Shown here: positions 10,301 through 59,435 of the stretch, piece by piece
How the letters are laid out: each line of letters starts with the position of its first letter
How positions within the stretch are numbered: position 1 is the stretch's first letter
The notes under the pieces: generated by a model
Database searches by the model: none
The model's input: the letters and a program-made list of their open reading frames with translations, nothing else
Told to the model about the DNA's origin: nothing
Assembly: GCF_037975245.1 (NCBI RefSeq)
Contig: NC_092572.1
Coordinates: 27,821,989-27,885,988 of the forward strand
Source of the DNA: Apostichopus japonicus
Taxonomy: Eukaryota > Echinodermata > Holothuroidea > Aspidochirotida > Stichopodidae
Direction of reading: 5' to 3'
DNA: 64,000 nt
Program-made: the position numbers and the translations under genes

Positions 10301-11097
10301 ACCGCCTTCGCAAAGAGGAGTGGAAGTTCCGATCGCTTGGCAGGATTTTGACTCATACTGTTGCATTAACAGGTGCATTACCCTGTCGACTTTCCCAGTC
10401 AGGAATTATTGCTATGGTGTTTGACAGTGGTGTAAATCCAGAGTATCTCTGGAAGGACTGCCTCATGTTTGTTTCACCTGCAGAAAATGTTTTAATTTAC
10501 AAGGCTTTAAATGACTTTGCCTCACTGACACCTACCTTGTTGGATCGCCTTACTACATTTTTCAGTGTAAATGGCTTACTTGAAGTGCCAAAAAGAGATG
10601 AAATAAGAGACCAACTTTTGGCAATTGCAACAGAGAAGCTGGTGAAGTCTCCAAGCCGTTTCTACGCTCTGATGAGGGAAGGCATTCCAGAAGCACACCT
10701 CGGTCTGTTCTGGCGTCATCTTTCTCTGGAACACGTGTCGTACATAATGGACTCACAGAGACCTACTCCATCAAGAGTTGTAGAAGCTCTTCGTACCGCT
10801 GATGACTTGAGACCTCAAGAAGAGTGTGTATTATATTTCTTAACGGAGTATATACGATCACATGACACTGATGATCTTCTTAACTTTTTACTGTTTGCAA
10901 CTGCATCAATCCACCTGCCAGAAGGAGGAATAACAGTGTCTTTTGTTGCCACCTCAGGACTGCTGCGCAGGCCAGTGGCACATACTTGCTCCAACACACT
11001 GGAAATCAGCACAGCATACAACAGCAGCCAAGAATTTAAACGGGAAATGAATTTGTATTTAAGAGATAAGTATTCCTACCAATTCACACTTCCATAA
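1330..11097 (+). CDS. HECT-domain E3 ubiquitin ligase, G2E3-like; 5' end not found
   Basis: Exons inferred at 1330-1455, 2151-2389, 3023-3104, 5522-5668, 6859-6915, 8605-8670 and 10049-11097, ending in TAA. Each has AG/GT borders and the phases join without a stop, giving about 588 residues plus an unseen start. The last exon (about 350 residues) is a HECT-like domain. It has the N-lobe pattern FEGESGDDFGGLTKEAL and, 36 residues from the end, HTCSNTLEI, where the Cys is the expected ubiquitin-thioester residue. HECT enzymes accept ubiquitin from E2 on this Cys and pass it to substrate. Exons 1-2 encode a compact basic/aromatic module (PFNRNWSIEMLKTKISELYP, later RGKLVVIP) that I do not recognise. 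Exons 3-6 encode a Thr/Ser/Pro-rich, then acidic linker. The HECT domain most resembles the divergent ones of G2E3-like proteins. Substrate is unknown. Confidence is high for the gene and moderate for the subfamily. Confidence 0.88.
3945..4860. repeat. Diverged ~150-bp tandem repeat, about six copies
   Basis: Successive blocks beginning near 3945, 4077, 4229, 4380, 4526 and 4673 share the same order of words: ATCATGTGAAAAGAG, GCAGGAT, TTGCATTGGA, ATCCAAAAATACCAA, ACAACTTTAT, then GGCCCACACAT. Units are 130-151 bases and clearly diverged. The array lies in the intron between exons 3 and 4 of the HECT gene, and a G run (4049-4059) interrupts the first copy. Open frames here on both strands are repeat artefacts. 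Confidence 0.75.
9200..9300 (+). repeat. tRNA-derived SINE-like segment
   Basis: TAGCTCCGTTGGCAAAGCA resembles a tRNA A box, and GGTCCCGAGTTTGAAA about 30 bases later resembles a B box, as in tRNA heads of SINEs. No clean cloverleaf or intact anticodon arm could be drawn, so this is called a degenerate SINE head, not a tRNA gene. It lies in the last intron of the HECT gene. Confidence 0.4.
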
Positions 11098-14199: not shown

Positions 14200-17100
14200 T
14201 CATCGCAACATTTCATTTAGGATGGTGACACATCTTCTGTATTTCAATTTGCTACCTCCATTGGTGTTGTCCACTGCATTTCTCAGTTGCTGCATCTGAT
14301 CGTTGTCAAGACCTTCTATTGAGTGACTGTCAACACCATCCATGGATACAGTTCTTCCCACTGTTTGCTCACTGCCTTCTTCATCATTAGCCTCCAAGAG
14401 AGAACACAATTTTGCTTCTAGGTTGTCATCTTCCTCTTGAAACATCTCCCTTACTACTGTTGCTGTTGAGTTTGTGTTCTGTAGAAAACCATCTAGCCAA
14501 ATTTGATGAGGTGTTCTACTTTGCTCTGTTCTAATTTTATGGCTGTTCCACCCATTTCTGAACTGTTCCATGAGCTGATTGATTTCATCCAGATAGACAA
14601 ATTTAAGTGCAAACATTTCTGTGGGGCTGTCAATGTGTAAGAGGTCATTGTCTTCTAATTTATAAAATTCTTTATACAAAGTTGAAGTGACATCCTTGTG
14701 AACATCTCGCCACAGACGCTCGATTCTTTCATTATGTACTGATTGTCCAGTGATGTGGCTTCCCCGTCCACTTCCTCTTAACAAATTCATGAGAAGGGCA
14801 ACATCAATGTTTTCACTGCCATAGTCTGACCTGACACGGGAGGGAAGACCATACCTTTTTGCAGCTTGCACAAACGATCTCTGAACAACATCAGCCTGGT
14901 TAGTTGTAGAACAATTTAAGTACACAACCATGCGTGAATAACCGTCGATGCCACCATGTGTCACAAATCCCCATCTGTGTGAAACAAAACAAATCTTCAT
15001 ATCATTTACAGTACTAAAACTTATGTTTCGATCATGCCATGAGTTTCAGGTTTATTAGACATTTGGTTCTGTAATAATGGTGTTACAGGCAAAGCATCAC
15101 AAAACAGTACAATAAAACAGAAGGAACAAGAATGCAAAAATTGATTGAGGTTTGATGACTTCATTACACTAGACATCTGCTCGTTCACCAGAAATAGTTC
15201 TTAAAATATAAATGTCCTGAATAGCTTTTGGATCTACCAGTACACTATGGCATGTACAAAACACATCATTCTTCTGTGGAAAATCACCCACAATAAACAA
15301 TAGGGGTCATGTAGTCAATGTGAGCAACCTCACACCAACTATGAGAAGTATCCATTATTACTCCCTTCAAATATTGTGTTTAGGTTTTCAGAGTTGACCT
15401 CTGGTGACCTCAAAATGTTCTGAATTGTTGTTCTCAGTAAGATGAATGTGACTCACGGTATTCATAGCCCAGCCAACATGCCCAGCTGGGCTTAGAGGTA
15501 GTCTGTATTGGCCCCAAATTATAGCATGCTATAATTTCTAGACGTTTTTAAAAAGTACTTTCCTGGAGGTCTTTACTATCCAAATTGTTCTCAGACATTC
15601 TAAATGAACACAAGATGACTAAATTTCCCAGTGAGGTAAATTTCTTGAAAAAAATATATCAAGAGTAAAGTAACCCATGTTTTGGCTAATGTCGGGCTTT
15701 CCGTTACTCTGGAGCCCAGCTGGCTCCCAAGCGCGGCCCAACTGGGCAGACACTCTTATTTGATTGATGCTTATTTCTTAGAAAATTCATGTTGTTGGCA
15801 TTTTGTGTGTTATTGGGAGTTTTAAGTTAAAGGATAGGCTATGTGATTACAGCTTAATGTCAATCTAAAATTTAGTTCAATTTTTGCTGGGCTGCAGCTG
15901 GGCTATTGCTGGAGTTTCCCACTATTTGGAACCCAGCTAGGGCCCTACTGGGCACTTCTTTGGACAAACACTCTTCAGTTCATAAACCCAATTTTGTCAA
16001 CCTTGAAAAAAATAAAAGAAAAAAATTAACATGTTTGTATCTGGCTTAACCCTTACAAAAACTTCACACATGTTTTCCTGCCTACCGTTTTGGGATGTAC
16101 TTATTTATCAAGCAAGGCCATATATACTGTAGCTAGGCCTGTAGCGGTTAATTACCCCACGGACAAGTTTGAATTTTGAGATATAAATGTGTGTCATATA
16201 TGGTATTCTACAGTGTGTAGACTAAATCCGTGCAGCATTTCAAATTGAAGTTTTCTCATAGCTTTGAGTCCAAACAGTATCTATTGGTGTGTTTAAGCAT
16301 CAGTCATCACCTACTGCCTTAATGGAGGATCTGAACAGAAACCGCCCAAATGAAAGAAAGAAAAGGCACCTAACTATATGCATATTACTTGCTTTCATGC
16401 CCATATGGTTTACCCAAAAAGCAGCTGGAGCCCACCTATAACCCAACCATAGCCCAGATGGAGCCCGGCTGGGCCTAGGTCGTGCTAGCTCAGTTGGGGC
16501 CCACCTAGGACCCACGTGGGCCCCGGTTGGGACAAACACGGCTTGGCCCCAGCTGGGAATGTTGGCTGGGAGGTTCGAGGACTAACTGACAGCAACTTTA
16601 AAGAAATTAATAGATTGTGAAAAAATTGATATATTGGGATTACTGTGGATATGCCAACCTTGGAATTGTCTTCTTGTTTTTCACTATGTGGCCAGACAGC
16701 CAGGCCGCACTGGATATCCGGTGCATCCCAAGGCTTTACAGCGAACAAGCCAATTGAATACATCGAGGCAGTCACCCGAGGACATTTTGACAGTGTGTAG
16801 TATGAAGTCTAGCTTTTTATATACCAAACAGTGTGTTAGTCTGTTGATTACTTAAAACCATCACAGGGAATAATTTAGTGTTCAAATTTTGCCTAGCATT
16901 TCTGAGGTTTTTTCAGTTCTTAAGCATAAATACATTAAAAACCCTGGGGTTATGCATGCGAAAAAAATGCTACAGATGTTCCATTTGTGTAGCATTTTGA
17001 CCAGTTTGTATAGCCAAATGAGATGTGATACTGGATAAATTATTCCCTGCACGTCCATAGAGCAAAATTGAGACAAACCTAATGAGTTTCATATGGCCAT

Positions 17101-18884
17101 CTATATGCCAAAGACTGTTGGGTGTTGGAACAAAGTAAGTTCCTCTGGCCACGGTCCTTCCCCATCTACTGGCAGTTCCCACCGGATCAGCTGTACGCAA
17201 CATGGAGCGATTTTTTTGCCGTGGGACCAGAATTCCTTGGCTCCTAAGGTATCCATTTATCATCTGAAAATAAAAAAGCATACAATATACAGCATCAGAA
17301 AACCACGGGGGGCAGCATGCAATTCCACCCTGGAAAAGACAGAAAAAGGTCCCATAATTGCATTGACTGGGCCGAAAAAATATAGGAAAAGTGAAGAAAA
17401 TGGCCCCATAAATTCTTATCACAGAATATGAGATGAAGCTATTCTTATTTTTTTTCTGGTAATGAAGTTTCTTTGGCCAATCTCAGCCTAGTTTTGATAG
17501 AAACTGCTACCAGCCAAGATCAGTCTGTGCTGATAGACCATACAGTACACCATTGTTAGTAGCGACCATGCTAGAAAGTTTGTGTAACCTTTGGGATCAG
17601 TATGTACGTAGATATTGTTGATATTTTTCCCACACAGGCAAACATATGCCGTGTACCACTATTAACACGAAAACACACGTGTTTTCGAAGATACCAACTA
17701 GCATTTGCACTGCTAAATTTGACAGTGAAATATCAGCCATTTACCCTACAAAACCACCATCTTATATACAAACAGTTACCCACCAACTGTTATGATTGAC
17801 CTACTTATTTGAGAATCTTTTGCAACTTCAATTCTTCAGAATGGAAAGAATGTATTATTGTAACATGAACAAACCTCTGTGCCACTATTTGGGTGCTGCT
17901 TACTCAAGTTAGTAATAATGGCTGTTAGGTCTTCTTCACTCATGTTTGTGTAACGTTGTCTCATTTTCATCCCATGTTGGTAAAGGAGCTTGTACACAGC
18001 AGCAACTGAACACTTAAACTGTTGCGCCATTCTCTTTGCAGAATAACCCTTTTCATACAGGTAACGCAACTGCTCAAATGGTATTTCCAATCTCGGCCTT
18101 CCTCTTCGACCTGTTGAACAGCAAAAGTAAACATACACTGTCACTAAGAAAACAAAAACAGATTCACAATCAAACAGTGACGTAGCCAGAAATAGGATGT
18201 TTAACTTCCGCAGTCACATGCAACGTTGCATTTTGACTTATGAAAGATAATCTAGAGTGCCAAACTTGTGTGCGAGTGTAATGACATACCGTACATTATA
18301 CAACGGGAGGGGAAAGGGGACTAAGTTACACAGTACTACTACTGCCACTGGGAGTGGTACGGTAACTACTCATGCACTTGTTACAGGGAGGACAAACGTT
18401 GGGCAAGCACCGAAGGGCCAGGCCTATAAACCTATAGATGAGAGGCTATGACAAATAATACCGGGGTGGTTAAGTAGTTCAATATGAAAGACCAAAATGT
18501 TAAAAGTATACCATGGTCGGCGACAGGAACAGGCTGGTAAATGTGCCCATTAGACTGGCTCCCCGATGGTGGCTGCAACGTTCCGTCTGGCTGTGCCTGT
18601 GCGTCTGCGATAGAAAGGAGCTGATCTAGCACAGCTGCTATAGAATTGAACCTGTGCTCATCGATGCTCGCGTTAATCCGTTCTAAATTTCTCTTTGCTT
18701 GGAGAAGACGTTCTTTCGCTTCAGAAGCATTGTCATTGTCAGTTAAGAGCCGCTCTACTTCGCCCAAAATCCGAGAAATTCTGTCAAGAACGATCTGTGC
18801 TTCGTCATTTACAGCCATCGCCATGGTGAAAGTACCGCTATCGGTACCCTGTTGTCTCGCCACTGTCATTTGCATGTACTGCAC
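14200..18884 (-). CDS. Four-exon integrase-core-domain protein with N-terminal HTH
   Basis: Exons (minus): 18884-18512, 18110-17875, 17263-17079 and 14974-14200. All have GT-AG borders and consistent phase, and predict 522 residues from the first ATG. A later Met (MAMAVNDEAQ) could also start. Residues ~25-100 look coiled-coil. Residues ~125-200 contain a Hin-like helix-turn-helix (GRRGRPRLEIPFEQLRYL, later GYSAKRMAQQFKCSVAAVYK). Residues ~245-360 form a retroviral-type integrase (rve) core: WHIDGHMKLIR (D258), GGIDGYSRMVVYL, RVRSDYGSEN (D315) and HNERIERLWRDV (E350 most likely the acid, 34 residues after D315). There is no reverse transcriptase, zinc-binding HHCC domain or chromodomain. The family is a widespread intron-containing integrase-like group in animals and fungi, with unknown function. 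The reading frame is intact and the triad kept, so activity or a co-opted role is possible. Confidence 0.85.
15468..16570. mobile_element. 1.1-kb non-autonomous element with 23-bp terminal inverted repeats
   Basis: The two ends, 15468-15490 and 16548-16570, are reverse complements over 23 bases with one mismatch. Each contains CCCAGCCAACAT next to CCCAGCTGGG. The interior repeats CCCAGCTGGG, CCCAACTGGG and related words, mainly towards both ends, and carries no credible gene. No target-site duplication was evident. It sits in the last intron of the integrase gene. It is a MITE-like DNA element; I do not assign a superfamily. Confidence 0.65.
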
Positions 18885-40873: not shown

Positions 40874-41313
40874 CTAATACAGCTTCTCTTGCAGGTCTGT
40901 GCGGCCAGCTGCTTTTAAAGCCTCTCCCAGTACTCTGTATGTGGCTTGACTTCCAATTCTCTTTTTCCAAGTCAATAAAATCTGATAAACAGTTTCCTTG
41001 TGTCCCTGGTTGGTATAATCTCTCTCAAGGTTATAAAGCTTTGAGTCATCTAGTCCAAGCTTTCTACCTACAGCTTTCCACTCATTTTGAATTTCCTCCG
41101 AGAGATCCTGTAATATGATCAGAGTTTATGTATATTGAGTGTTATCTGAGTTTAACATACATAAAGCATATCAGTTTTCTATCAGGTCCACTGTCTAAAG
41201 TATTTAATAATTTTTGATGCATTGATTACAGAGTGAAGTAAAAGTTACCGCCAACGTGTTCCAATTATTTTTCACTTACAAATTATATGATAACTGACAC
41301 CGTCTGTATATTG

Positions 41314-41344
<31 letters not shown>

Positions 41345-44300
41345 GTATATTCATTTGCCTTTGTCGTTTACCTCCATTTCATTAACATAAAGTCTGTTCA
41401 AAGTATCTCTTTCGAGATCCGGCTTTAGGATTCACAAATGATTTTTGAGTTGCTTAGCATCATGTTTGATCTCTAGAGTAAGGCAAAATATGTCACCAAA
41501 AACAGAACTAGTATTGTTCGATACAGGTGACAAATGCCTACAGTGGATTTACGACCTTCCTTACCGGTTTCGAACCTCTGGACATACAAGCAGCGTCCAT
41601 GGCCTAGTTGGTTAGTGTGTTCTCGATTTTCAACTGTTGAAGTACATTTAGATCACGTGTATTTGGAACGGACCATAAGGATTACAATTTGCAATTTTAA
41701 AATTTTGTTCCCTCACAAAGAAAGTGGGCTTGATAAAATGTTGTGCCTAATTGGTCCCAAAACATTCAAGAGCATACGACCAAGCCCTTAAGAAACTGTG
41801 CCATGTTTTATGAGCGAGCTTTAACAAATTAGTATCCGCCAATTAAAGGCTGACCGTGCGCCTCTTGCCAACAATTTGCAATGTTTACAGCTGGCACACA
41901 TTGTTTGCAACTTTTGCACAAGCAAGTTGATTGAGTCCATGTTTAACATATTTATTGATGTTTTTCTTGTTTTCTGATGTTAGGATGAAGGGAAAGATTC
42001 TGCAGCTAGCGGTTCTGATAAATTAGTTGATGCAGGACTATCTCAGTCACAGAAGAGGACTGGTGATGAAAGTCTAACTGTCAAACAACCCCTAGAAAAC
42101 ATTGATCTAGAAGTCAGAACAGAAATTCTCAGGGTAATAATTTACATATTCAAGATTCTGTTGTCCGAAAAAAGTCTTCTTTAGAACATATAACACAAAT
42201 TGGTGCTTTGTCCATACTGGCCCTTAAGGCATACCTACTTTGACATTCAAGTTCCATGGTTTGCTTGTATATATTACATCATGATTTATTTCTACTAAAA
42301 TGCTTGCCATCTGGTACTGATGCTGTTTTATGATAACTGATTTTAATGAGGTATGTTCTTGCTGCAGTTAGATTAATGAGACTGAAATGTTACAATAGTG
42401 AGTGCAGTAACCTATAAAGATATTTGACAGCATACGAACAAGCCCTCATGAATCCATGCCATGATTTATGAAAGAGCTTAACAAATTAGAGTGCGTCAAT
42501 TAAATGCTGGCTGTGCACCTTGAAAATTGCCAACAATTTGAAATGTTCACAGCTGACACACATGTTAGCAACTTGTACACAAGAAGGATACAGCCGGCAC
42601 AATGTTGGTTCATAAGTCAACTTTTGGAGATTACATACAATAAATTAAGTACTAAGCACAACTTTTCACAGCTTCAACCATTGTCTTGACACAGGATTCT
42701 GTTGTCTTGGCAAACAGTCGTTTAAGAGCATATAGCACAAATTAGTGATTTACAGTTCGTCCATACTTGCCCTTACAGCATACCTACTTTGACGTTCAAA
42801 TTCCATGGTTTCCTTGTATATGTTACATCATGATTTATTTCTACTAAACTGCTCGCCATCTTCTATAGTATACTGATGCTGTTCTATAACTGATTTAATA
42901 GTTACAGTTAGTTCCATTTACTAGACCAAATGATTTCAATAGTGAATGCAGTTTATTATGAGTTTTAACAGAGCATAGCACCAAGCCATCATGAAACCGT
43001 GCAGCATGGTTGCATGTGACAGTCCTGTTCTAGCATGGTTATGTGTACTCATATTCAGCCCTGTTCTAGCATAGTTATGTGTTCTCATACTCAGCCCTGT
43101 TCTAGCATAGTTATGTGTACTCATACTCAGCCCTGTTCTAGCATAGTTACGTGTTCTCATACTCAGCCCTGTTCTAGCATAGTTATGTGTTCTCATACTC
43201 AGCCCTGTTCTAGCATAGTTATGTGTTCTCATACTCAGCCCTGTTCTAGCATAGTTATGTGTACTCATACTCAGCCCTGTTCTAGCATAGTTATGTGTTC
43301 TCATACTCAGCCCTGTTCTAGCATAGTTATGTGTACTCATACTCAGCCCTGTTCTAGCATAGTTACGTGTTCTCATACTCAGCCCTGTTCTAGTATAGTT
43401 ACGTGTTCTCATACTCAGCCCTGTTCTAGCATAGTTATTTGTACTCATACTCAGCCCTGTTCTAGCAGAGTTATGTGTACTCATACTCAGTCCTGTTCTA
43501 GCATAGTTATGTGTTCTCATAATCAGCACGGTTCTAGCAGAGTTATGTGTTCTCATACTCAGTCCTGTTCTAGCATAGTAATGTGTTCTCATACTCAGCC
43601 CTGTTCTAGCATAGTTATGTGTTCTCATACTCAGCCCTGTTCTAGCATAGTTATGTGATCATAGTCAGCCTTGTTCTAGCATAGTTTTGTGTACCCATAC
43701 AAGTTCTCTATTAGGCCCCATGTTTAAAGATTGTATGACAAAGCACTTAATGTATTGATTACAAAATGACAAATTTCACATCATGTATTTCTATTGTTTA
43801 TTTATATCCATTGAAGCTTGACGAAGTTCGTTTATATCCAGACTCCTTCTGAGTATCTTGTGTACTACAACATGATACTAAATGATGGATCTGCAAAGCT
43901 TTTCTCAAAAAGAAAAAATAATTTATTAACTGTTAACACTTTACCCACAAAGTGGCATCTTCAACTGGTGAAGATGCATCAACTCTTGTCTGTTGGGAAA
44001 GTCTCACATCTCTTGGCTGTAATGCTTGAGAACTCCCCGAGAGAGATGTAGCCAGTACTTTCTGCGATCAGAATTAATAATACAAGTTATACAAAACTTC
44101 AAAAACAACAATTTTTAACTTTTGATCCACCTCCACACATCAATAGTCGTTTTACAAACAATAAACAATGGACATAATAGTATGAACTAAAGGAAGGGAA
44201 TGACAAAACATATTTATTTGTATAACCAGTGTGTTATACTAGATTACCATTTGTTCTTAAACCTCTTAATACATTTAAGAATTTTGAACTTTTGTCTACA

Positions 44301-47300
44301 TCCTAACATCAATGATGATTGTGTACAAACAATGGACAAAACACGAACATGATCTAGTTAAGAGTTACAAACAATCATACGACTCATTACTATTAGCTAT
44401 GAACAGTAGTAAACCATGCTCAGAAGTCTTTCAACAATTTTTAACTTTTGATCTACACACATCAAAATTTGTTCTTAAACCTCTTAACACCAAACAATTT
44501 TGAACTTTTCTCTACATCCTAACATCAATGATAGTTGTGTACAAACAATGGACACAACACGAACATGATCTAGTTAAGAGTTACAAACAATCATACGACT
44601 CATTACTATTAGCTATGAACAGTAGTAAACCAAGCTCAGAAGTCTTTCAAGTTAATATGTTAGTGTAATATGTAAAAGTTATTACCTTGCTTCCACATGT
44701 TGCCTCTATTTCCATAGGAAGTGTGTGGATTGGCATGCTTTGAGCTATTTGCTCTGTAAGCCAAGTTGGTGCAGCTACAAGTTGATTGTCACTTCTAGTT
44801 TCTCCTACTGTAAATGTAAGCAATTAGATATACTGCATATTTAGCCATGTTTGTTCTTTCTCCACAGATATCTCCTGGCCTGAGGTTGGAAACTACCTGG
44901 TTGTGGAAACACTGGTAGCTAAACTTGTACGAACTCTTATTAAAGAATATGCTTCAGACAATTGGTTGTCACATGGTAGTTTCTAATAGCCGAACTGTCT
45001 TTGAGTGTAAGTGTTGGTCAAGTGGATATGATCAATTGCACATTGAAATTCCTCCATTTCTTATATTTTACATAGTTTCTTATACTCTTAACGCATTCCA
45101 CAGCTACTCACAGTAACCACATTTTTTAAAATTATTTGCACAATGACAAAAGTATAATCAAATGTGATATGTAGAGTATCGTTGTGCACAAAGAATGTTC
45201 AATCTCAATGTCACACATCAATTTGACAATGCAGCTCTTCTCTTAATGTACAAATGTACTGTATCTGTCTTCTAAATGATCAACAGTTAATATTCATTGG
45301 CTAAAGATGGCGATTTTAATGTAGTAACCATTCTAATCAACATATTAGTGCTACTGTACATACTGTGAATATTTCAATTATTTATGAATGTCATTTTCTA
45401 TTTTTCACTAAAATAAAGTAATTTTTTCAATTGTAAGGTGATACACTCTGTATACATTCCACATTTACCTTGTGGCACCGTTGAAGGGTTACGATGATAT
45501 TCTGGTATCATGGTATTCTGACACTGTACATTGGAAACAGTTGGGACTTCTTGAGAAAAGCTTGGCATTGAATCAGTACTCTGAAATACAAAGATACAAT
45601 CAGACTTCTTCAATGTCTTCAAATAAGTTTTTATCACTCACGCTTTGACATGACTTAATTGTATATTTTTTATCTCTTAAAAAAGTTATTTATGAATCAT
45701 TCAGTATAGACAAGAGCTTAATATGAGTGTGTAACTTAAAGCAATAATTACAAACTGAATTACATTGGTAAAGATGGTACAATTTGGTATTACATTTGGC
45801 TAGAAAGCAACAATATGGAACGTGTGTCTTTACTTTCTTCATTCTATGAGCCAAATTGGCAATTTGGTAGGTTGTTAAGTCATCGTGCAGAGTATGCAAT
45901 GTTGTCAATTCCTCAAGCTCCAACATAAGATATATGTTCTGAAATGATCTAAACTCCAACATCCAACATTGTCACTGTCACTTGTAATCTGTCCTTTACA
46001 GGTTTGCTTTTCTGTTTGCTATTAACATAGTTTTACAGTCAAAATAACATTACTTTGGAAGATATGCTGAGATGACAAATATACTGAAATTTACCGTCAC
46101 TGCAGCTGTAGATTCATTAAAGCGTCTCTTCTTTGGGTGTGGGACATCTGCGGACAGTGATGGCGCAGGATTGCCTGAGAGGGATGCTGCTGATATGTCC
46201 TGCAGCTAAATATGTTGAAATGAGGTAAGACACAAAGTATTATAATATTGAATAGTAAACAAGTAGCCATAATTGGGCTTATAAGTGATCATTACTTGAC
46301 ACAATTGAGAATATTTAATGTAACACTGCAGACAAGATTACAAGTTTGACCACTGGTGAATTCACAAATTTTCATACCTTGACACCTGTTGACCTCAAAA
46401 TACCTTTCACCCTTTGATTGTTGTACTTGAGTAAATTCAACCAAGCTTTCAACCAAATTTAACCAAACTGAAAGGATACATAAGGTCAAGCAAACTTTAT
46501 TACTGAAGTTTCCCATAATTTGAATCCTATCAATCTGTATAGAGGTCAACACTCCTTTGAGTTCACCAGAGGTCAACATCATAAAACAGTAATTATCACT
46601 GTAAACTCTAAAGAAAATGTGCTAACAAGAATTAAAGATGCCAGAATGAATCCACATGAAATTATGAAACTTATACAAGTTTTCAGATTTACCATTCTTA
46701 AATATTTGTATACTTTGACAAATGGTGACCTCACTTGACCTTTAAATCTATAACAACACACAGAGTTCCTTAAAAATATAACCAGAGGGAAACCCCTCCC
46801 AGTGGTTACTTGCTTTTACTTTGCTTCCAGCAAGGAACCAAAATGGTTGATTGGGTTCAATATCTCATTCCCATAACACTATGGGTTGGGATGGGATAAC
46901 AATATGTGTACTTAAAGCACCTAACTTCAAGCGTGCATAGATCATAGCATAATTGTTAGAACAATACATAATAGCCATAATGGCTAACTAAATGCAAATA
47001 TCTGCTGTTCTTCACTGATGTGCATGCATGCACTGAGGCAGAACATATTCAATAGTTTTATAAGTAAGTAAATGTGCATCTTTACCAAAAAAAGTCAAAG
47101 AATTCACATAAGCAGCTGATAAATGATGTCAAGTGATAATTTAACAGCAAGATGAATGTATAAATGTTTACAAACCTTCAACTGGACAATCAAAGGTACT
47201 GGAACTTTCTGAGTAGCTTCAAAGACTAAAATGCAATCTTCTTCTCCAACCTTCTCAAAGACAAATGAACACCGACAGTCTACGTTGACTGCTACGTTTA

Positions 47301-50300
47301 TATAAGGAATTGTCTGCAGCTGAAAATAATTGTTATTCATCTGATAAGGGAAGGTTGCCTTAATCTGAGTATGTAAAATATGAAGCGATGTAGCTAGTCT
47401 GGGGAAAATGACTTATTAAGTCAAGGTTGCTGAAAGTATGAACAAGCATCTAGGAGATATGCAGGTTTGAAGAATGCTTCCTTTGGTTGCTAATAGCTTC
47501 TCATGACCTTTGACCTTACATTATTGATTAATGCAGCTTGGCGTCATGATATCCATGCCAAACAAAAAAGATTCATTTGAAAAATATTTCACTTTTCTGT
47601 AATTACTTCCTGAAATATCCATTGACCTCTTATCCTCTTATCCTTGCAGGAGGATCTAATATACATACATTCATACATACATACATACATCCTTGTAACA
47701 ATTTTGTGCCCATTCATCAACCCACCACTCCATAGACTTCAAACTTAAACGATCAGAATACCACCCTAGGAGGGGAGCATTTTAAAGGTTTTTATCTTCG
47801 GACCTGCCGTAACCCAAAATGACCTTAGACCTACTATTATTTAGGTGTTAGGTTTTGGAGCCCCTGAAATGGGCAAAAACTTGGACATATTCATCAGGTT
47901 TGTGCAAATGGCCTGAAAGCAACAACCTTTCAAAGTTTTGACAGACAGATAGATGCACCTTACTATGGCATTAGCTCCATTGTATGGCCTTGCCAAATGA
48001 GCTTAAAACAATGCAACTCATGAACCCCAACATCATATTTCTCTTTGGATATTAAAACATGTTACAGAATTCCAAATCCAGAGTTAAGAATGGCATAGCA
48101 TGATAAATGTAGCATGATACATGATTTAAGTAACTCAGACTGGTTGGTTAAGAATGCAGTCATTCCAATGCACACATGAATTATAACATTTGTTAATTGG
48201 TCAACATAAAAGAAATCAAAGATCATTACCTTTACTTCTTCCCCTCCTGTATATTTCCAGGACATTGGCTTTACCTCCTTAAATAGTATCTTCAAAGGCA
48301 AGTTTCCCTCTTTACAGAATAGGAACGGAATTTCTTCCAAAATTCGCAAATTATTCTTGATGGAAAACAAACGGAATTCATAAAACAAACAGATATAATA
48401 TATGTATGCATGTGTGTGAAATCAACATGCTTAGACCTAGTACTTGTGATTCAATCTCTATTAAATGTCATCTCTACTTGATATTATTATGACATTGATG
48501 CTGTTTAACAAGTTTTTCTATGTTATGAGATGAAAGCAGATTAGCCCATATACCCTCAGGCCTATCTGTATAGGTAAGCAAATAGAGCAGAGGCATTTCG
48601 TATGAATGTATGTTTGACAACAAGCCAGATGTTTAACATTAGCATTATGTAACAGACCTGTATTCCCGGAATTTGTGTTCGTATATTAGTACATTTAGCC
48701 AAACTCCTAATCCTCAATGTACTCACTTCTCGAACTAATGACTGGTACGCATACTTTTGTAGTCAAACACACATGTCTATTTCCATATTGATTATCACTG
48801 CAATTATTACCCAGATCCTGTATGGATACATTTGCTTTATATATATTTTACTTTCAAACAACTTCACAAGATTATGCATACAGTTAGTAAGCACTTGATC
48901 ATGGAACTTCATTATCATTATTATGATCATTATGAAGTGAAATCCAAAATCTTGTAAGAAATGTGAAATCTTGTTCTCTACCTGGAGGAAATTCCCTAAT
49001 ATTGTGATGTTTGTGCCTGCACATACTGTGGCTGATTTCACCATTAAAGATGTTTCTCTTCAGGTGATCAAAAGAGCTCAACCCCCCCCCCCCCCCTCCA
49101 CATCAATAACATCGCAAATAACTAGAACCATGTGTTAGAAGCTTATTGTATCACTGCTTAATTACAATAATAAACACTTAATACATTACAAACAGATGTA
49201 GCTAATAATTTATTGCAATAATGATAATCATTTACTTTGACTCACCGGTCTTTCACCTGGCAGTTTAGGGTAGAAGCCAACATGTATGGGTATTATTTTA
49301 GAAAGTGGGTTCTGGTTATGAGCAGCATAGACTTGGATCTGTTTAAATTCAACAATTTTGCCATCAATCTCATATGTCTCCCAGGAAAAGCTTTTAATCC
49401 AGATTACACAGTTTGTGTCATTCAGCTGATACAAAACATTAGGTTTTGGCCTCCACATTGGCTTAGAACCTGTATCAAAACAAAATATAGCAGTGGCCTA
49501 AAAAGTTGATACTGTCATTCCTTAATTTTCCTTTCTTTTCAAGTAAAAACTTTACAGATAATGCAGAAGTTCATAAAGTACTTCCAAGAATTATTTTGCT
49601 TGCAACCCAGTGGTACTTGTAGTGAGTTAAAATTGCACAAAAGAATCTGCTGAGGGCAGAAATTCATGCTATGCAAGACATGGATAGGTTTCATTAGGAT
49701 GGTTACATTAACATCTTTACCTAATAAGTATTATTGTGATAAAATGTTATAATCCTATTATTTCTGAAAGTCAACTTTATAACATGTATCGAATGATGAC
49801 AACTGTATTAGCTATCAACATTAAAATATGTACTGCATATCTTTGATGTAAGAAAGGAATTTGTACAATCATTAACAAGCAAATATTTCTTCATGTGAAG
49901 ACTGCTGCATGCATCAAGAGTATGAAACCTAAACACACTGTCGATTATCTATTGTGTGTTGACAACACTAAAGGCAACATAGACACCAATATAGTCTTGG
50001 TAGGTGTGACAGATGCTGCTTACCAGGAATGAACAATACATCCAGTATACATATACTGTGGGTGTGGTGTCTCTTCCATGTCTGCTTAGTCACGAGTTCC
50101 TACACTACATATATACAGTACCTTTAGCATGGTGACTGCTGTACACCATGGCTTTACGTTCACCAGTTTTCTTCAACTGCAGACAGTGAGGCAGGGTGAG
50201 TTTTGCTAACTGATGTAACTTCAGATTATCAGGAAGAAGTTCCACTACTACTGTTGAGTTACTGGTAAATGATGATTTAGACTCTTCTTGAAAACTGATT

Positions 50301-53300
50301 GGTATGATTCTCATCTGGATCAAGCATTCCTGTTCAATAGCACCACAAGGAATCTCTAGTCTAACGCCAGTCCCTGGTATCTCTAGAATCCCTCCTTCCT
50401 TGTTAACCAAAGATTGTATGCTAAGAGATGTGTCCAAGTCTATATCTATTGATGAGTGTAAAGAGAATATCATGAATAGCACCACAAATTAGTTACAAAA
50501 CAAACATGCCAGTAATCGACAATTATATAGTTTTAACATCAATCGGTGTAGTCTAGCATCACTGTTGCCTCAATAAATTATGTTTATTTGTTCTCTAAAG
50601 TGTGTCATTATAGCTCCATGGTTCAACTCCTTATTGAGCCATTGACCTTATTATTTATTTAATGCATAAGCTTTCATATAAATTATGCAAATTCAAGTCC
50701 ATAAACTTGCTGAGTATTACAGTTAGACATAGCTTTACCATCTGTGCACCTTATGTATGGTTCTGTATGAGACTCACAGATATTGTATGTTCAGGCATCA
50801 TCAAAGATTTCATTAAACAATGTTGAACAAATGGTGAAAAGGGTATCACATCTGTCGGTATACAGTGCTACATGTGTTAATAGCCAGCTTATGCAATATA
50901 AACAATCTTAACTGATCATGTTAGGTAACTCAGAGTGTGATAGAAGTGTGAAATATAACAGAGAAAGGTCACACAATGTCACTTTCCCTTTCCACTTCGA
51001 TCCAACTAGATTGGCATGTGCCATTGCACGTTTGCTTGAATCTAATGAAGCACACTGTTTATGGTGTTACCACACATAGGCTATCACTGTTCTGATTTAC
51101 TTTACCAGCTCAAGCGTGTTCTCTACATGTGGCTATGTGGGTGTCAAAATGCTACCTAAGACCTAATTCATTTTTCATCCTGGATAGTTCCACACTAAGG
51201 TCAGGAACTATGTTTATATCCCTAAAGATTGCAGGCTTTGAAGATTGCCATATCTCAGCCTATCTACTAAACTACAAACTATGTCAAAGGCTAGTGCTGC
51301 CATTGTTATTCACATTATTCAATTATTCATTATTGCTACAGTATTACATCTTCAATTATATTTTATAAAATGTTTACTTTGTAAAACTCTTCTTAACTCA
51401 ATTTCAATAAGTCAATCATGATCCCTTTTCTAAAAAAGAGTTATTCCACCATCTCCTTGGTACTGTGAATCAAAAAGTTTAAAATAAATAAGTTTAAGCT
51501 AGACACACCTGTAACTGCTTTTGTTGCTGATGGTTCATTAGAGCTCCTACTGTGTAGTCTAAACTCCATCTGGAGGAAGAAATAATTCCAGATAAATACA
51601 ATAGAAACAATTATCAATTTAGATTTGCTGGTAACTGACAGAACTTCTCCAAATCAACAATCAAAACAAATATACGATGGAAAATGCTTACAAATTTGCA
51701 TTTTAACAAATAACACTTTATCATTTGACAAAAACAAGAAAAGATTATGTTTATCTCACCGGCCATTTTCCAGTGTGCACATCTAAAGTGTGAATTACAT
51801 TGGCTCCAATGGTCCATTCAACTGCAAAGAGCATATTTGATCACATATAACTGTTGTGGTTATTGCAAATAGAACTGCAATTCTCTTAAATTAATGATTT
51901 TACTATTCGCTAAATGGTGACATTTTGTTGCCAAGAAATTGCAGTAACATCTTGTTGTAGACTAGATCTGCAAATAACTATGTGTTTGGTAAACAACTGA
52001 TTGAAAAGTAACAACTGATTGTTTACCAATTTGTGAGAAATACTGTTATGCTTGCAGAAATTAAGTGTAAGTGATAAATGAAAATCAGAGAATAGCCTCA
52101 GTCTGATCTCTCTCATGATCTTCTTTATATCAAGTACATTAAACAACCAGAAAACCAACTTACTACTGGATCTACATAGAAGTGCAAAAATTCGGCCACC
52201 CTTTACACTTGGAGTTTTTGTTGTGACAAGGTTTCTAGACTTTTGACCTCCACAAAGAAAACAAAAGGGTTCTTGCACTCATCAATGTAAAGTGAATCCA
52301 CATGCCATATATGCTTAAGTTCATTGATGCTGTAGTTTTGGAGAAGTTTGTTATTTCTACAAAGTATTCAGACTTTACAGTAACTCAAGTTATCTCAAAT
52401 GAGAACTGCTTCTCACAAACTCAGTATAGCTCTAAATTCACCCATATTTACACCATCAATATGATGCAGATTTGTGTTGCCTTTGACAAGGAGTAAAAAC
52501 TCAATTGATCCAAGTTATTTCTCTATACTTTGAGTACATTACAAAGTGCTTCAAACAAAGATGTTAGAAAACCAATGTAGATTTTACTTGTTTTAAATGT
52601 CAAGTCGACTACACATTACTTCCTTTGACTGTGTGGTAAGTATTTACCTACAACATGCTACCATGGGACTTAATTTACATAACCAAACAAAAGTGGTATT
52701 CATTAATTACTAAGTGACCCCTTACCTAACACGAATATATTCGATAAGTATTCAATAAGTATTCAAAGATTTCCTTAGTATTCAGAAAATCTACCATATA
52801 ACACACAGTACAAAATAAGTATTCGAATACTAATACGAATAACTATAAGCCTTCGTCAGAGCCGAATTATGTAAATGAGTTAAGTATTCGAATACCTGTT
52901 AGGTATTCGAATAGGTATTCGAATAGCTCTTCGAATAGCTATTCGATTAGGTATTCGAGTAGCTTTTGGAATAGCTATTTGAATACTTAGCTCATTTACA
53001 TATAAGTATTCGCTCATTTAAATAATTCGGCTCTGACGAATACTTATAGTTATTCGAATACTTATTCGCTAGTATTCGAATACTTATTCGCTAGTATTCG
53101 AATACTTGTATGCTAATTAGTTATGTTATGAAGGCTTAACAGGTTTCTGAATACTTACTTGAATACTTATTGAATACTTGTATGCTAATTAGTTCCAAGT
53201 AAGGAGAGTTAGGAATTTGGCCAGCTTGTTGTCCTAGCTTCTTGATTAAATCTGCTATTAAAAGTTGAATAACATTCACAAGGAATAAATATCTATTTGA

Positions 53301-56300
53301 AATGGAGTATTAAGCACAGAATACTAAAACAGTAGGTCTTATGAATATGATCGATGAAATTTTGGAAACACTTCAGCTATTAAATCCTCCGCGGTATATT
53401 TCAAATATTTTTGCGCTGTTCAAAGTGTAAGGGTGTTAGCAACTGAAAAAAAATGTTTGTTCTTGATCAGAGAACTCTGGGTTTGGTTGGAAGACCAAAC
53501 ACAGAGCAGATACATCAAAACTGGAAAACTCAACCGGATTGGATCAAAAGAAATTATAATTATGAATAACAAACAATATTCAGCTGATCTGGGCCCAGTC
53601 AAAGAATTAAATAAAATAACTTACAGTCGTGAGGTCACACCCAAATGTTAAAGTAAATACACTTAATTTAAAAGTCTGTTCTGGTGAGTTGGCCTGCTGG
53701 TGACATCAAGTATTCTACGACATCATATCTTCCACGACATCAGATATTCCACAACATTAGAAATAGTTAAACACAAAAAATGGTATTATGAATGTCCGAT
53801 CCCAACAAAGTATTATCCTTCAATTTATAAGCAATGGTGTCGCAGGGTATCCTTCAGTAAAATAATGTCAATATCCTCTGTAGTAAAATAATGTCCTTTA
53901 TAAGAAATAGTGTCCCGGAATATACTTTATTGTAAAATAATATCCTTTATAATAAAATAGTGTCCCAGACTGTCAGTTGAATATCACAACTTCCATAAAA
54001 TGATAAGGACTACAGTAACTTGAACTATGTAAATTAAGGTTTAAAACAAACTATCCAGCCATTAAAACTATCTTTCTCTTCTTTTGCAACTGCCTTGCTC
54101 AGATACTTATAGCCAACTGCCTAACTCGTTATACCCCTCACAAAACTCCCTTTGTTACTAAAATATACACACACAGACCCCATTTCCTGTGAGAGCTAAT
54201 TTCCAGGAAGAACAAGATAGTTGCCTAGCAACCTAGAAGAGGTAGAAGTGTAGAGGTTTTAATCCACAAGACAACATACAAATATACTGTACAAATGTAT
54301 AGCCCCTCTGTTCAGTGCACAATGCACCTAATAAACAAGTAAAACTATGGTACAAAACAAAACTTTATGTAAGAGCTGACCATCTTACAAAAGGAAATAA
54401 GTATTCGAATAGGCATTCAATGAAATAGGTGTTCGAATACTTATTGGAATAGCTATATTTAGCATTCTCTAAGCATTCGAAGGAAAGAAGTATTCGAATA
54501 CCTATTGGAATAGTTATTTTAAGTATTCAATTAGTTATTCTAAAGTCTGAATGCTTAAATTTTTGAAATACCAACTATATAGCTATTCGAATACTTAGCG
54601 AATACTTAGCGAATACTTAATAGTTATTCGAGTTGGGTAAGGGACATTGTACCTGAAATATTTCGGGATTGTAAGGCTTTCAGAATCTTGTCATCTGTCA
54701 CATCCTTCGGTGGACTTGGAAAGAGTAAACTAGGGTTAAAGAAAGTGAAGAAACAATATACACTGTTATTATATACAGAAGTTCTTAGCAGCAAAGGTTA
54801 AAATATTGAACCATGTGTTTTACTTGTTCATTTCACTGTTGAGGTTTTAATGAGTGTTTACAATGCATAGTGTCCTTTTTTCTCCATGCATTGTATATAT
54901 TTCATAAAAGTAATATTGAATGTGCATATATTTTCTATATCTTGATGAAATAGGAATGCATACATTGGTCCGTTATGTAAACAACAAAACAGTTACAAAT
55001 GAACTCTGTGTGACCTACAGAAAGATACCAACAGTTACTATTTCTTTCCTGTTGGCTTTACTTATATTCATCTTCAACTATTTTTGTCTCTATGTCCATG
55101 TAGGTATGTATTCTCAGTTTTGTTTTCATTGTTTCAATAAACGAAAGATATTAAATTTCTACTTACCATGCTGCATTAACATGTTTACAATTTAAAATGA
55201 ATTTTAGAAGGTCTTCATAATCTTTGTCGATTAGTTTCTGGTCCCATCGATCCATTTCAATAGCCTCAAGAGTTTCTAATATACCAAGCCATACATCGTC
55301 CTGTAAGACAAGGGCCTTGTCTGTAACTTTTTCAACCACATCTGAAAACTTCAGACGCTTTATTGGAACCTAAAAATGAACAGAGTGTTTCACACATTAA
55401 AACCTGACATCAGTATTCACAGATAACAGAGGGTCTATTTGAGAAATTTAAATGCCCCGTGGAATAAGGGAAGGTACAATGGCAATAGAGGACTGGGGTA
55501 AAAAATGTACTCACTAAGAGAACCAATTCAACACTGACTTGATCATAAAACATAATAAAGTATATATTACTGGGAAGTCACTCAAGCATAATTTTCGACG
55601 GGCTAAAATGTTTATCAAGCATCTTCATGCTACCAATATGTTAAGGAATATGGAGTTACTTTTAGAAATGGAAAGTGTTAAAAAAAAGTGACTGTACCTT
55701 TGATTTTGAAGCAAAGGTCACCATAGAAACTTTTGACCTCAGCAGCAGTCGACTATCTCCAGAGCTGAAGTTGATGGATTCTCTTCTACAGATCTCGGTG
55801 ACAATGTCCTTGAACTTGTGTCCTTTGTACTCATCATGCTCAGCAAAACAAAGACAGATGCAGTTCATGATGTAATCAGGAATCTCCCCATCTCCTATTT
55901 TAAAGTCTCTCATTAGAAAACTGGCAATGAAATGAAAGCTGGGAGGACAGATGTGACAAGTGAAGCGCAAGACATAATGGAGATCAGCTGGGTCTATGTT
56001 AGCCAGGTGTTCTCTGAACAATTGATACTTGTAATGGTGTTCAGTTGATTTGTGACCCCAGAAGAGGTGGGCTAAATACTTTGCTGCAAACCACTCTTGG
56101 ATTAACTTATGAAGGAATTTAACCTGTAAAGAGACATATTTTGCAGCTTTTCCTTTCTGCAAAGGTTTTGATTTCTTCTCTTGCGATTCCAATATTAGTT
56201 TTCTCTCTGATTGACTGACAGATGCTGAGAGATCAGGATCAGGGGATACCCCTCTCTTTACCTCTGAAGTAACATTAGATGTGTTCAGTGACTCATCACT

Positions 56301-59300
56301 GATGGAATCAGTCTGGGGAGTTCCACTGCCTGAGTCAGTCTGAAGATTTCTATCAGGGGAATTAAATGGAGTTCCTTCCTCAACAACAAGTATCCCAGAA
56401 TCTATCCATGCTTTGCTATTAGTGACACTTCTATCCACAAAGTCTTTCTGCCAAAACAATTGTTGGTTTCCTTTACAGAGGCCATTAAATGCAAGTTCCT
56501 CCAACGTAATGTGGGGTTCTATTGATACTTCACTCTCTAATCTGCTCTCATCCTCTTCACGAACTGATTCCTGCTGCTGGTATGACAGATGTCCCGAGGT
56601 GTCTTCCTCATCCTGCACAGAACACAGAATATCTACAATGGCCTTCACGAACGGAGTAACCCTGTCGAGCTGACCAACTTGTAACTTTCCTAATCTATCA
56701 ATGTTATGTACTAACAGCACAAAGAGTAGTGGAACATTACAAAGATCAAGAATAAATGGAACATTATCAATCAATTCCTTTACTTCTTCTTGCTTTTTGA
56801 CATCATCAGAGTAGACTTTTTCAATGTATTCATCCCTCTCATCCTCACCGAAGCTTCCTATCTTCAACATTGGACCTGGAGGTAGATGCTTGGCATAATC
56901 TGTCCTAGCTGTGATTATTACAATGCAGTTGGACAGTTTCTCCTTTGTCATTACTCTCATGACTTCTGAGGGACTTCCATCTTTGGTTCCACCATTGTAT
57001 TCTTCTAACCCATCCAATATGAGGTAGACTTTCTTCTGACCACTGTTAAGCATAGACTCAATATCCTCTTCTGTAATGGGAATGCCTTTACGGATGTAGA
57101 ACATCTTGATAGCTTGAATAATTGTCATGTCATCAACAATTTTTAAGGGCAGATAGATGACCATGGGGATATCCATAAGCTTTCCACAACACCAGTCATA
57201 GGCCAACTGAGAGGAGAGCATTGTCTTGCCGGAGCCTGGCTGTCCTTCCAGAATGATTCGAGTCTCTGCTTTTAGTCTTTCATCAGTAAAGATATCTAGG
57301 TAGTGCAGCTTACATTTTCGGTCAACTTCTCTGCTAGTTATTTTTGAACCAGAATTTGTTAAGACTAAGCGGCTGGCAATAAAGAGATCATTAGATTTCC
57401 ATTGACAAGACTTCATCCAGGGGACAGGAGTCATTGTTTCAAACCAACTCTTCATCTTCTGTTGTAAACATTTCAGGAATAAGCTCTCGTTGTCTTTAAA
57501 ACAAGGAAACAGAAAGCACAGTTCAATTTATATTGAAACAAGTTAAAATCTTTCACAATTTATGACAATATAAAGAACATCTACCATACTGAAAAACAAG
57601 TGTGCTTTGATATCAATAGTTTGGGCAATCTCGTAACACTGTATCTTTCGTAACATCTACAGTAGTATAATCTTCAAATGTAAAGGTAACTCACACCTAA
57701 CACAAACTAAGACATGTGTCATTGCTCAAACATGCTAGTCAGTTTAAAAATTACTCAGTAATACAAACAGCAATAACAAATAGTTTCATACATCCAGACT
57801 TGAAACAATTGGAAACGCAGATGTTTTTATATTTCATTCATACCATCAGATACTGTTCTCTATCTGCAATTTATTTTCAAAGACTACATGTACCACTATT
57901 GAAAAATCCAAATTTAAAGATTTTATTTTATTTTAGAGACAAACATTGCACAATGATTGCTGTCATAAATGGAAAGAATTGATACTGTCCTTATTTATTT
58001 GTCACTGATCAAGTAGGACTCCTCCATAATTAGGAGCAGTGTTTAATTGTGAAGTCATTTGAGTACACTGCAAACTGCAGCTTCCTGGGACACTACTAAA
58101 ACATTTTCAAAGGATTAATATCATAACTTTAATTTTACAGGAGAAAGAGCTGTTGGTATAGTCACTGTATGACATCACAGATTACACAGTAGAACAATGC
58201 ACTCATCACACTAAAGTGAAAACCTACATTATTATATTTCTCAACAACAGACAATGCTATGAAGCTGTGAGTTGCATCAATGTGCTTCAGTTCAAAACAT
58301 ATTTTGACATCTCATTCTTCATTATCCCTAAAATATCCTGTAATCCACACATATGATTTTTAGATAATGAGTGCATTTTGTGTGTTTAACTGCTTTCGAG
58401 CTATGAAGTCTTACGTCAGGAATGTTCCTTAAAACTGGCACAACACTTGTACCAGTGGGGTGTAAGGTTTGTAACATACACATGAATTTACAATACCTTC
58501 ATCTTGTGCCTTTGTTTTGTCAGAAAGTGCCAAGGACTGGTATTCGTGTATCTTAGCTACTGCCTGGAGAAGACGATATTCCTCTAAAGGAGTCTCTAAT
58601 TTGCTGACATCAGAAGGATTAATGATACCCATCTTATCAATTGTCAGGAGGAAGGAGAGTCCTGGATTCTGACTGGAGATAACTGTCTTCTTGTTCTTAT
58701 CAGTAACTTCAAAGTTATCACACAGTTTCACTGTTATGGAAAATGTCAAATGAGCAGAGAGGCCGGCGAGGAATCTATCGTATTCAGTTTCTTGATCTGA
58801 AATGTTTAAGGTAAAACATTAAATTAAGTTTCCAGTTTTTGTTAAATATCCACAGATACGTACAGGCACACTGATAAATGCATAATCCACATCATGGCAC
58901 AGGGTGACTTTTGCTCACTTGTACATATGTACATATGTAAGTACTATGTTTTGGTGTGCACATTTTGGTTGCCAGCATCTAGAATAAATCACCACCTGTG
59001 TTATGTATCAATACTTAAAGTGGGATCTTTCTGGGGGTAGGGGTGGGGAAGGGGATAGGGCAAGTTGGGGGCAGGGGTATGGCTTTTTAAGTAAGTGCAT
59101 TTTGGAAGTACCAAAGGTGAAGCAAAAGACATAATTACAAGAGAGCTTGTGATTATTGGCCTACCTCTCAGCTTCATGTACGTCTCTGTTAGTAAGTGAG
59201 TATGGTTGATCTTCAGCTCAGTGAGTGCATCAGTTAATCGATTCACATTTGAAGGGTGTATGTATCCTCTCTCTTCAAGGGCAAGCAGAAAGTTCTTGGA

Positions 59301-59435
59301 GTACAAGGGACTTGTAATAATGGTCTTCACTTGATCGGGTGGTAGTGAAAAGTAGCGGCCTAAATTCCCACAGTCAGTTTGGGTAAGCTTTGAAGAAAGT
59401 TCTTCTTTGAGATGGCTGAAGGTGAAGATGGATGC
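40874..59435 (-). CDS. NLR-type receptor: DED-DED-NACHT-ZU5-UPA-Death
   Basis: Seventeen minus exons: 59435-59165, 58796-58497, 57493-55698, 55369-55167, 54729-54653, 51821-51760, 51569-51509, 50445-50122, 49469-49246, 48355-48230, 47319-47176, 46205-46095, 45938-45834, 45580-45469, 44807-44686, 44061-43945 and 41107-40874 (TAG). All junctions are AG/GT and in phase, about 1462 residues; a 5' exon (phase 0) is missing. Residues ~1-90 and ~91-185 resemble death-effector domains. At ~191-789 is NACHT, with Walker A GQPGSGKT (274-281) and Walker B VYLILDGLEEY (346-356), plus its helical C-terminal part. At ~925-1065 is ZU5 (GGILEIPGTGVRLEIPCGAI, then W-I-K-S-F-S-W). At ~1067-1196 is UPA. A linker with PKKRRF runs to 1385, then Death (1386-1462, NEWKAVGRKLGLDD). 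No LRRs were seen. Likely a cytosolic sensor that oligomerises and recruits death-fold adaptors. The first two and last domains could in principle be separate genes, but unbroken phase argues for one. Confidence 0.85.
41320..41345. repeat. AT microsatellite
   Basis: An uninterrupted (AT)n tract of about 12 units in the last intron of the NLR gene. Confidence 0.8.
41770..42880. repeat. Diverged tandem duplication in the last NLR intron
   Basis: Segment ~41770-42330 matches ~42425-42880 in order: CATACGACCAAGCCC / CATACGAACAAGCCC, GCCAACAATTTG, then TTCTGTTGTC, GCATACCTACTTTGAC and CATGATTTATTTCTACTAAA. A third trace starts near 42970 (AGCATAGCACCAAGCC). Only the first copy contains the plus-strand exon-like segment at 41984-42133. 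Confidence 0.65.
41984..42133 (+). CDS. Plus-strand exon-like segment inside the NLR intron
   Basis: After TTAG (41980-41983), 50 codons are open in phase 0 to an AGG|GTAATA donor. The translation is hydrophilic (DEGKDSAASGSDKLVDAGLS, then VKQPLENIDLEVRTEILR), compatible with an interdomain linker. It lies antisense to the NLR gene. No partner exons were found nearby on the plus strand. It may be an inverted copy of an exon of a related gene, or chance. Confidence 0.25.
43024..43700. repeat. 36-bp minisatellite, about 19 copies
   Basis: The unit CTGTTCTAGCATAGTTATGT + GTTCTCATACTCAGCC repeats head to tail with few substitutions. Because 36 is a multiple of three and the unit has few stops, long open frames of 207 codons (plus) and 230 codons (minus) appear with a 12-residue period. 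They are by-products, not genes. It lies in the last intron of the NLR gene. Confidence 0.95.
44108..44660. repeat. 216-bp tandem duplication
   Basis: The block starting at 44301 recurs at 44517 with about five differences over more than 130 bases (TCCTAACATCAATGAT to AGAAGTCTTTCAA). A partial earlier copy begins near 44108. It lies in an intron of the NLR gene, between the exons ending at 44686 and starting at 44061. Confidence 0.8.
47642..47691 (+). repeat. SINE tail fragment
   Basis: TTGCAGGAGGATCTAATATA followed by imperfect ATAC repeats matches the tail junction of the SINE at 20120-20372. The tRNA-like head is not recognisable here, so this is a 5'-truncated copy or a shared 3' end. 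It is in an NLR intron. Confidence 0.55.
49082..49096. repeat. Poly-C run
   Basis: Fifteen C in a row on the plus strand, one of nine G/C homopolymers of nine or more bases in the window. It lies in an NLR intron. Confidence 0.8.
52715..54647. mobile_element. Palindrome-rich element with TATTCGAATA arrays at both ends
   Basis: Two clusters of AGTATTCGAATACTT-type palindromes (52730-53190 and 54395-54640) flank about 1.2 kb of ordinary AT-rich sequence. The outer borders are imperfect inverse copies: CCCCTTACCTAACACGAAT on the left and ATTCGAGTTGGGTAAGGG on the right. The left cluster contains a long hairpin: arms 52813-52885 and 53010-53070 share the inverted 17-mer TCGTCAGAGCCGAATTA. It lies within an NLR intron, its right edge six or seven bases from a splice donor. 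Superfamily unknown. It could also be two related insertions. Confidence 0.6.

Follow-up and report, generated by a model that had tools for sequence, protein, structure and literature searches.

A sea cucumber NACHT gene with ZU5, UPA, and Death domains and a candidate FIIND-like cut site belongs to a linked, expanded family

Release by degradation has been studied in depth for NLRP1 and CARD8, PIDD1 has the layout LRR-ZU5-ZU5-UPA-Death, and the UNC5 netrin receptors are membrane receptors without NACHT, for which we know of no self-cleavage. Here we describe a gene on the minus strand of a 64,000-nucleotide stretch (the window) of the sea cucumber Apostichopus japonicus, C12:27821989-27885988, where C12 denotes the contig carrying it (NC_092572.1). 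Judging from its sequence and from predicted models of its relatives, the locus looks intact and belongs to a holothurian STAND/NLR family with, in this order, an NHL-like propeller, a tandem DED, NACHT, a linker, ZU5, UPA, a long linker, and Death. By analogy, the mechanisms that come closest are those of NLRP1/CARD8 and PIDD, and we consider it probable that the gene works like NLRP1 and PIDD, with a ZU5 that would cut itself, halves that would be held together, and a UPA-Death part that would be freed on a trigger. It may represent, in an invertebrate, a cell-death sensor of the self-cleaving kind.

Proteins in which NACHT and ZU5 occur together, as here, are on record from sponges, cnidarians, and ctenophores as domain lists, with function unknown; the accessible text of these sources gives domain combinations only, with no UPA, DED order, or cut site (PMC12909245; PMC8260672). 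Fusions of ZU5/FIIND to TRADD-N proteins also occur in animals, with autoproteolysis predicted by the authors in the excerpted text (PMC8195603). In the excerpts of one survey, FIIND-CARD NLRs are listed only in vertebrates, and the deuterostome NACHT proteins listed with non-CARD death folds, likewise non-CARD as in our gene, carry Death at the N-terminus but with no ZU5-UPA listed (PMC11508797). The receptors AjNLRC4 and AjNLR-new share species and NACHT with the window gene but differ by Ig and membrane spans, as described in an extract of their source (PMC13133943); they are set apart by that description, and predicted Ig-plus-NACHT proteins match the family at only 27-31%. In the open-licence full-text literature, as far as its retrieved extracts go, neither the order DED-DED-NACHT-ZU5-UPA-Death nor an invertebrate NACHT protein with a FIIND cut site was found described. 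A preliminary description of the locus knew of no gene with this exact order, which stands for the full order in that literature, but not for NACHT-ZU5 as such, and uncharacterised predicted proteins with the same order are already in databases.

The first gene model, built by dynamic programming with splice profiles and spanning 59435-40874, was refined by mapping the A. japonicus predicted protein P0001, which over the compared stretches matches a paralog near C12:28.20 Mb at 99.6-100%. The refined model has 16 exons in 59435-40874, with GT-AG at all junctions, consistent phases throughout, no internal stop, and a terminal TAG at 40876-40874; the joined protein, counted from the propeller exon onward, has 1,692 residues. 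NACHT, ZU5, and Death lie in the expected minus-strand open reading frames (ORFs; Pfam 3.6e-17, 8e-11, and 6.9e-16, respectively). These domains and the one consistent phase had been proposed earlier and are borne out, but 16 exons rather than the proposed seventeen are supported. Candidate exons e6 (53254-53159) and e17 (41603-41565), together with e16b and e17b of the first model, were dropped because P0001 lacks them; e6 is also absent from three close paralogs, the position of e17 lies beyond the paralog stretches compared, and e16b, which has a match in one close paralog (28.02 Mb), looks like a repeat. The proposed end at 40874 holds, but 59435 was rejected as the gene start, as further upstream exons lie outside the window: a propeller region of one exon (window-equivalent 69354-68545) and, at window-equivalent 79501, a likely ATG exon, a candidate whose first residues resemble those of P0001. 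This N-terminal propeller, the dozens of copies in the family, and the meaning of the cut-site motif go beyond the preliminary description.

ZU5 occupies exon e9 (50122-50445; Pfam, codons checked), with the LPHC His at 50188-50186 and the SHH histidines at 50134-50129. Exon e10 (49246-49469; alignments and gene model) holds the end of ZU5 and the start of UPA, which continues in e11 (48230-48355) and finishes in e12 (47176-47313), both supported by paralogs, profile alignment, and the gene model. Pfam detected UPA in 3 of 22 family members, but not in the window's own ORFs or joined protein. The family ZU5-UPA profile aligns to UNC5B across both domains, and the predicted ZU5-UPA fold of a paralog resembles UNC5b, NLRP1, and CARD8. 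The ZU5-UPA assignment made earlier is upheld in this sense, by Pfam for ZU5 and by profile, family members, and paralog fold for UPA. The idea, also put forward then, of an NLRP1-like layout with different death-fold domains at its ends is supported by the UNC5B alignment, by the paralog fold, and by a Phe-Ser at the cut site.

The candidate autoproteolysis site in e10 (49384-49389, codons checked) reads S-F-S-W, with Phe TTT at 49389-49387 and Ser TCC at 49386-49384. In the profile alignment, where UNC5B numbering was anchored by Cys-663, Glu-666, and Cys-670, the Phe of the family's Phe-Ser-Trp aligns with UNC5B Leu-677, a residue equated with CARD8 Phe-296, which precedes the nucleophile Ser-297, in the excerpted text of D'Osualdo et al. 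(2011; PMC3210808). By this alignment, Phe-Ser, the residue pair at which human NLRP1 and CARD8 cleave themselves, occupies the FIIND cut position. We compared 81 e10 copies, namely the window and 80 of the 85 other listed genomic copies, five of the weakest being left out. Phe and Trp are invariant in all 81, none has a stop codon, and the residue after Phe is Ser in 61, Cys in 19, and Asn in one, whereas the residue before Phe takes eight types, including Ser (40) and His (3). On a tree of 73 distinct e10 exons, in which the Ser/Cys column itself was kept in the alignment, the Ser/Cys state changed at least three times. The SHH motif is invariant in 10/10 aligned sequences, window included, and its first His lies 18 residues past the LPHC His, the same spacing as between the conserved CARD8 His-252 and His-270 near the site (PMC3210808). 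We rejected this spacing as a special sign because UNC5B shares it.

The family thus described resembles NLRP1 and CARD8 in having ZU5 then UPA, by profile and by paralog fold, and the window gene resembles them in the Phe-Ser at the cut position. It differs in having Death for CARD and tandem DED for PYD, an N-terminal NHL-like propeller with no Pfam LRR match, Cys for Ser in some copies, and dozens of copies. With Death as its C-terminal domain, the protein falls outside the FIIND-CARD class, though it may operate in the same way. The Death domain, in the last coding exon e18 (40874-41107, including the stop codon; Pfam and solved-structure relative), has the RIPK1 death domain as its nearest solved relative (1.2e-9). 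PIDD1 shares with the family a ZU5 followed by UPA and Death. The PIDD1 ZU5 is self-cleaving, with the motif HFS in the source excerpt (PMC3210808); HFS was read in 3 of the 81 e10 copies. PIDD1 differs in lacking NACHT and DED, and in the window gene a single ZU5 precedes UPA, with NACHT instead of LRR followed by two ZU5.

If the gene works like NLRP1 and PIDD, ZU5 would, shortly after it folds, cleave itself at the backbone bond joining Phe to Ser (in some copies Cys), and the two halves would remain bound non-covalently. Triggering of the N-terminal half via propeller/NACHT, or its removal by degradation, would free the UPA-Death half, which would recruit RIPK1/FADD-like death-domain partners. 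The DEDs may offer a second, caspase-8-like outlet, and the propeller may act in sensing. The copy with Asn (FNW) at the nucleophile place, L094 (C12:19774135-19774350), the sole one among the 81, is by its sequence a natural candidate for a non-cutting variant.

Several points weigh against such a cut. The likeness to NLRP1, CARD8, and PIDD appears by fold only: searched against solved structures, the ZU5-UPA profile found only UNC5B and ZO-1, and with the threshold relaxed to E 10 it still recovered none of these three. UNC5B, with Gly in the nucleophile position, also carries the conserved His that follows LPHC by 18 residues, and the residue important in CARD8 as Glu-279 lacks a clear counterpart in the window (alignment A3). 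The conservation of Phe-Ser-Trp could serve folding, and the e10 copies were chosen by their likeness to the window exon. We know of no FIIND with Cys at the nucleophile place, and the Asn of L094 belongs here as well. Furthermore, fast evolution is seen in e12, with which UPA ends: two of the three comparisons between near copies give a non-synonymous divergence (dN) of 0.21 at a synonymous divergence (dS) of 0.21-0.25, and the third gives dN 0.06 and dS 0.11. These dN/dS estimates take their exons from the first model and draw on five paralog loci, using for each exon those loci that matched it.

The alternative that survives best, though we regard it as unlikely, is that the ZU5-UPA-Death tail, as in UNC5, would form a closed supramodule without being cut: ZU5 would keep UPA and Death inactive and open on a signal, and Phe-Ser-Trp would be kept for the fold only. 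UNC5 has the same ZU5-UPA-Death order and is the nearest match by fold and profile, and some relatives carry the database name UNC5. However, the Phe-Ser/Cys of the family is replaced by Leu-Gly in UNC5B, and a purely structural site need not be restricted to Ser/Cys (80/81) while the residue before Phe varies so freely. In place of the UNC5 netrin ectodomain, the N-terminal side consists of propeller-DED-DED-NACHT, no membrane-span search having been run.

The NACHT NTPase and its subsequent helical part are encoded by e3 (55698-57493; Pfam), with an intact Walker A/P-loop, GQPGSGKT. Upstream lie e1 for DED1 (59165-59435; gene model, paralogs, and Pfam), which is joined upstream to the out-of-window propeller exon, and e2 for DED2 (58497-58796; gene model, paralogs, and cFLIP alignment). 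No above-threshold DED was found by Pfam in the window ORFs or joined protein, the window's own match being sub-threshold (8.5e-4), but all seven aligned members, window included, have DED Pfam matches (best 5.1e-7). Among solved structures, the cFLIP tandem DED aligns in register with the DED profile, weakly (E 0.024), with EF-hand proteins scoring equally. The predicted model of the paralog P0021 has six-helix bundles at the DEDs, with six helices for DED1 and helices at 370-457 for DED2. The tandem DED proposed earlier is a candidate assignment, weak in the window itself. In the fold comparisons of the P0021 model, one list is filled by propellers, consistent with the NHL-like bladed beta-propeller assigned to the N-terminus of the family, and the other contains NLRC4, NOD2, NLRP3, and G-beta, with NLRC4 as the top Foldseek match and nearest solved NACHT relative. 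Pfam found no LRR in the window protein, and the propeller is an alternative sensor candidate; exon e4 appears LRR-like only by eye, with no supporting domain match.

The arrangement is repeated across the genome. In three close paralogs, exons e1-e5 and e7-e16 follow one another in the same order, with 67-100% protein identity per matched stretch; their Death exons, found by a Death search, lie further on along the same strand, outside the stretches compared. Linkage was counted on 65 of 90 NACHT, 93 of 150 ZU5, 86 of 86 e10, and 130 of 145 Death matches from the search listings; the NACHT matches left out are those of about 30%, mainly on C16, C17, and C22, and the ZU5 matches left out belong mostly to a second ZU5 family on C15, C23, C19, and others. 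NACHT pieces within 4 kb were merged, and the reach was 80 kb or the next NACHT. Among the matches listed, 46 of 50 NACHT loci have a downstream same-strand ZU5 or e10 and then Death before the next NACHT, the other four have Death alone, and, in the matches used, none has an opposite-strand element within reach.

An ordinary STAND oligomer such as NLRC4, in which NACHT would form rings, the DEDs and Death would seed filaments, and ZU5-UPA would be a spacer or the target of a regulator (e.g., a DPP9-like protease), is quite improbable in our view. It would suit the intact P-loop, the relation to NLRC4, and the two DEDs on the N-terminal side, but it leaves unexplained both the conservation of the cut site and the linkage of ZU5 and Death at those 46 loci. 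That the gene model has fused two adjacent genes, DED-NACHT and ZU5-Death, is highly improbable: the introns are long (~2.8 kb between e5 and e7) and databases hold proteins with NACHT without ZU5 (P0021 and P0022) or with ZU5 and Death without NACHT (P0047), but phases fit at every junction, P0001 and other predicted proteins of two species contain both halves, and the same-strand order recurs across the loci.

The two halves of the gene have different histories of divergence. With the C12:29.54 Mb copy as reference, the window differs little in the NACHT exon (dS 0.11, dN 0.04), whereas in ZU5 (dS 2.4, dN 0.28) and e10 (dS 2.5, dN 0.41) synonymous sites are nearly saturated and dN is far lower. 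Pairing of NACHT and e10 identities by hand across the 46 linked loci gave 41, among the matches listed, whose NACHT reaches 83% identity or more with the window (best piece if split); of these 41, 15 (window included) have an e10 of 80% identity or more and 26 have one of 64% or less. From this pairing and the dN/dS contrast, the N-terminal halves look homogenised or exchanged, and the C-terminal halves appear to form diverged classes. Mosaic copies are found on C12 (e.g., c12_29.54, L015-L016, compared with window 57493-49246), in which DED-NACHT is near identical and ZU5/e10 strongly diverged.

A wider proposal can be offered tentatively, at somewhat less than even chances: outside vertebrates, with Death replacing CARD, sea cucumbers would have built a large family of self-cleaving FIIND-type NLRs, in which Ser and Cys alternate as nucleophile, DED-NACHT halves are recombined with diverged ZU5-UPA-Death halves, and "cut, hold and release" predates or parallels the NLRP1/CARD8 inflammasomes. 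With the same cut site in an echinoderm NACHT protein, it can be tested directly and easily whether this release logic has an older origin or arose on two occasions. Copies that differ naturally in having Ser or Cys as nucleophile also amount to an experiment on the chemistry of the cut that nature has already set up. A. japonicus is an aquaculture animal exposed to Vibrio, according to the extract of the source (PMC13133943), and a receptor family of such size is therefore a candidate source of immune variation.

Single predicted proteins, P0001 included, span the whole domain order. In Holothuria leucospilota, relatives combine NACHT and ZU5, in part with Death as well, in one predicted protein, and 53 of the 65 relatives listed carry both NACHT and ZU5 by precomputed Pfam. 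The named relatives are all from Apostichopus or Holothuria except one Porites protein (2.1e-5), a few being unnamed; because the search needs shared 5-residue words, this does not amount to absence outside holothurians. Variants of the layout were also observed. SH3 domains are added to a NACHT(-ZU5) protein in P0040, P0041, and P0059 of Holothuria, where P0062 has a clear Pfam DED pair between NACHT and ZU5 (1.2e-15), a placement unlike that of the window gene, and P0064 has DED and NACHT by precomputed Pfam. Several genomic copies have an extra Death before ZU5, giving Death-ZU5-e10-Death (e.g., C12:28475247 and C12:33443824), and in P0047 a Death (377-452) likewise precedes the second ZU5-UPA. 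The second large ZU5 family (L019-L024 on C23, C15, and C19) has two ZU5-like exons plus DED-like exons per locus, and P0028, by eye, seems to read ZU5, DED-like, NACHT, without Phe-Ser-Trp.

The remaining exons encode linkers. Between NACHT and ZU5 these are e4 (55167-55369), which is kept in paralogs and found in P0001, followed by e5 (54653-54729), e7 (51760-51821; EWTIGANVIHTLDVHTGKWP), and e8 (51509-51569); between UPA and Death they are e13 (46095-46199), e14 (45469-45580), e15 (44686-44804), and e16 (43945-44061), all from e5 onward being supported by paralogs, P0001, and the gene model. The intron between e16 and e18 contains a 36-bp minisatellite of 19 copies (window 43020-43700), and a 216-bp tandem duplication lies at 44249-44650. 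Elsewhere in the window, an ORF at 10003-11097 on the plus strand carries the C-terminal part of a HECT ubiquitin ligase (Pfam 2.6e-7). On the minus strand, an integrase-core ORF (14200-15045; rva_4, 6.3e-73) and a helix-turn-helix ORF (17836-18213; HTH_7, 3.3e-6) are perhaps one mobile or domesticated element.

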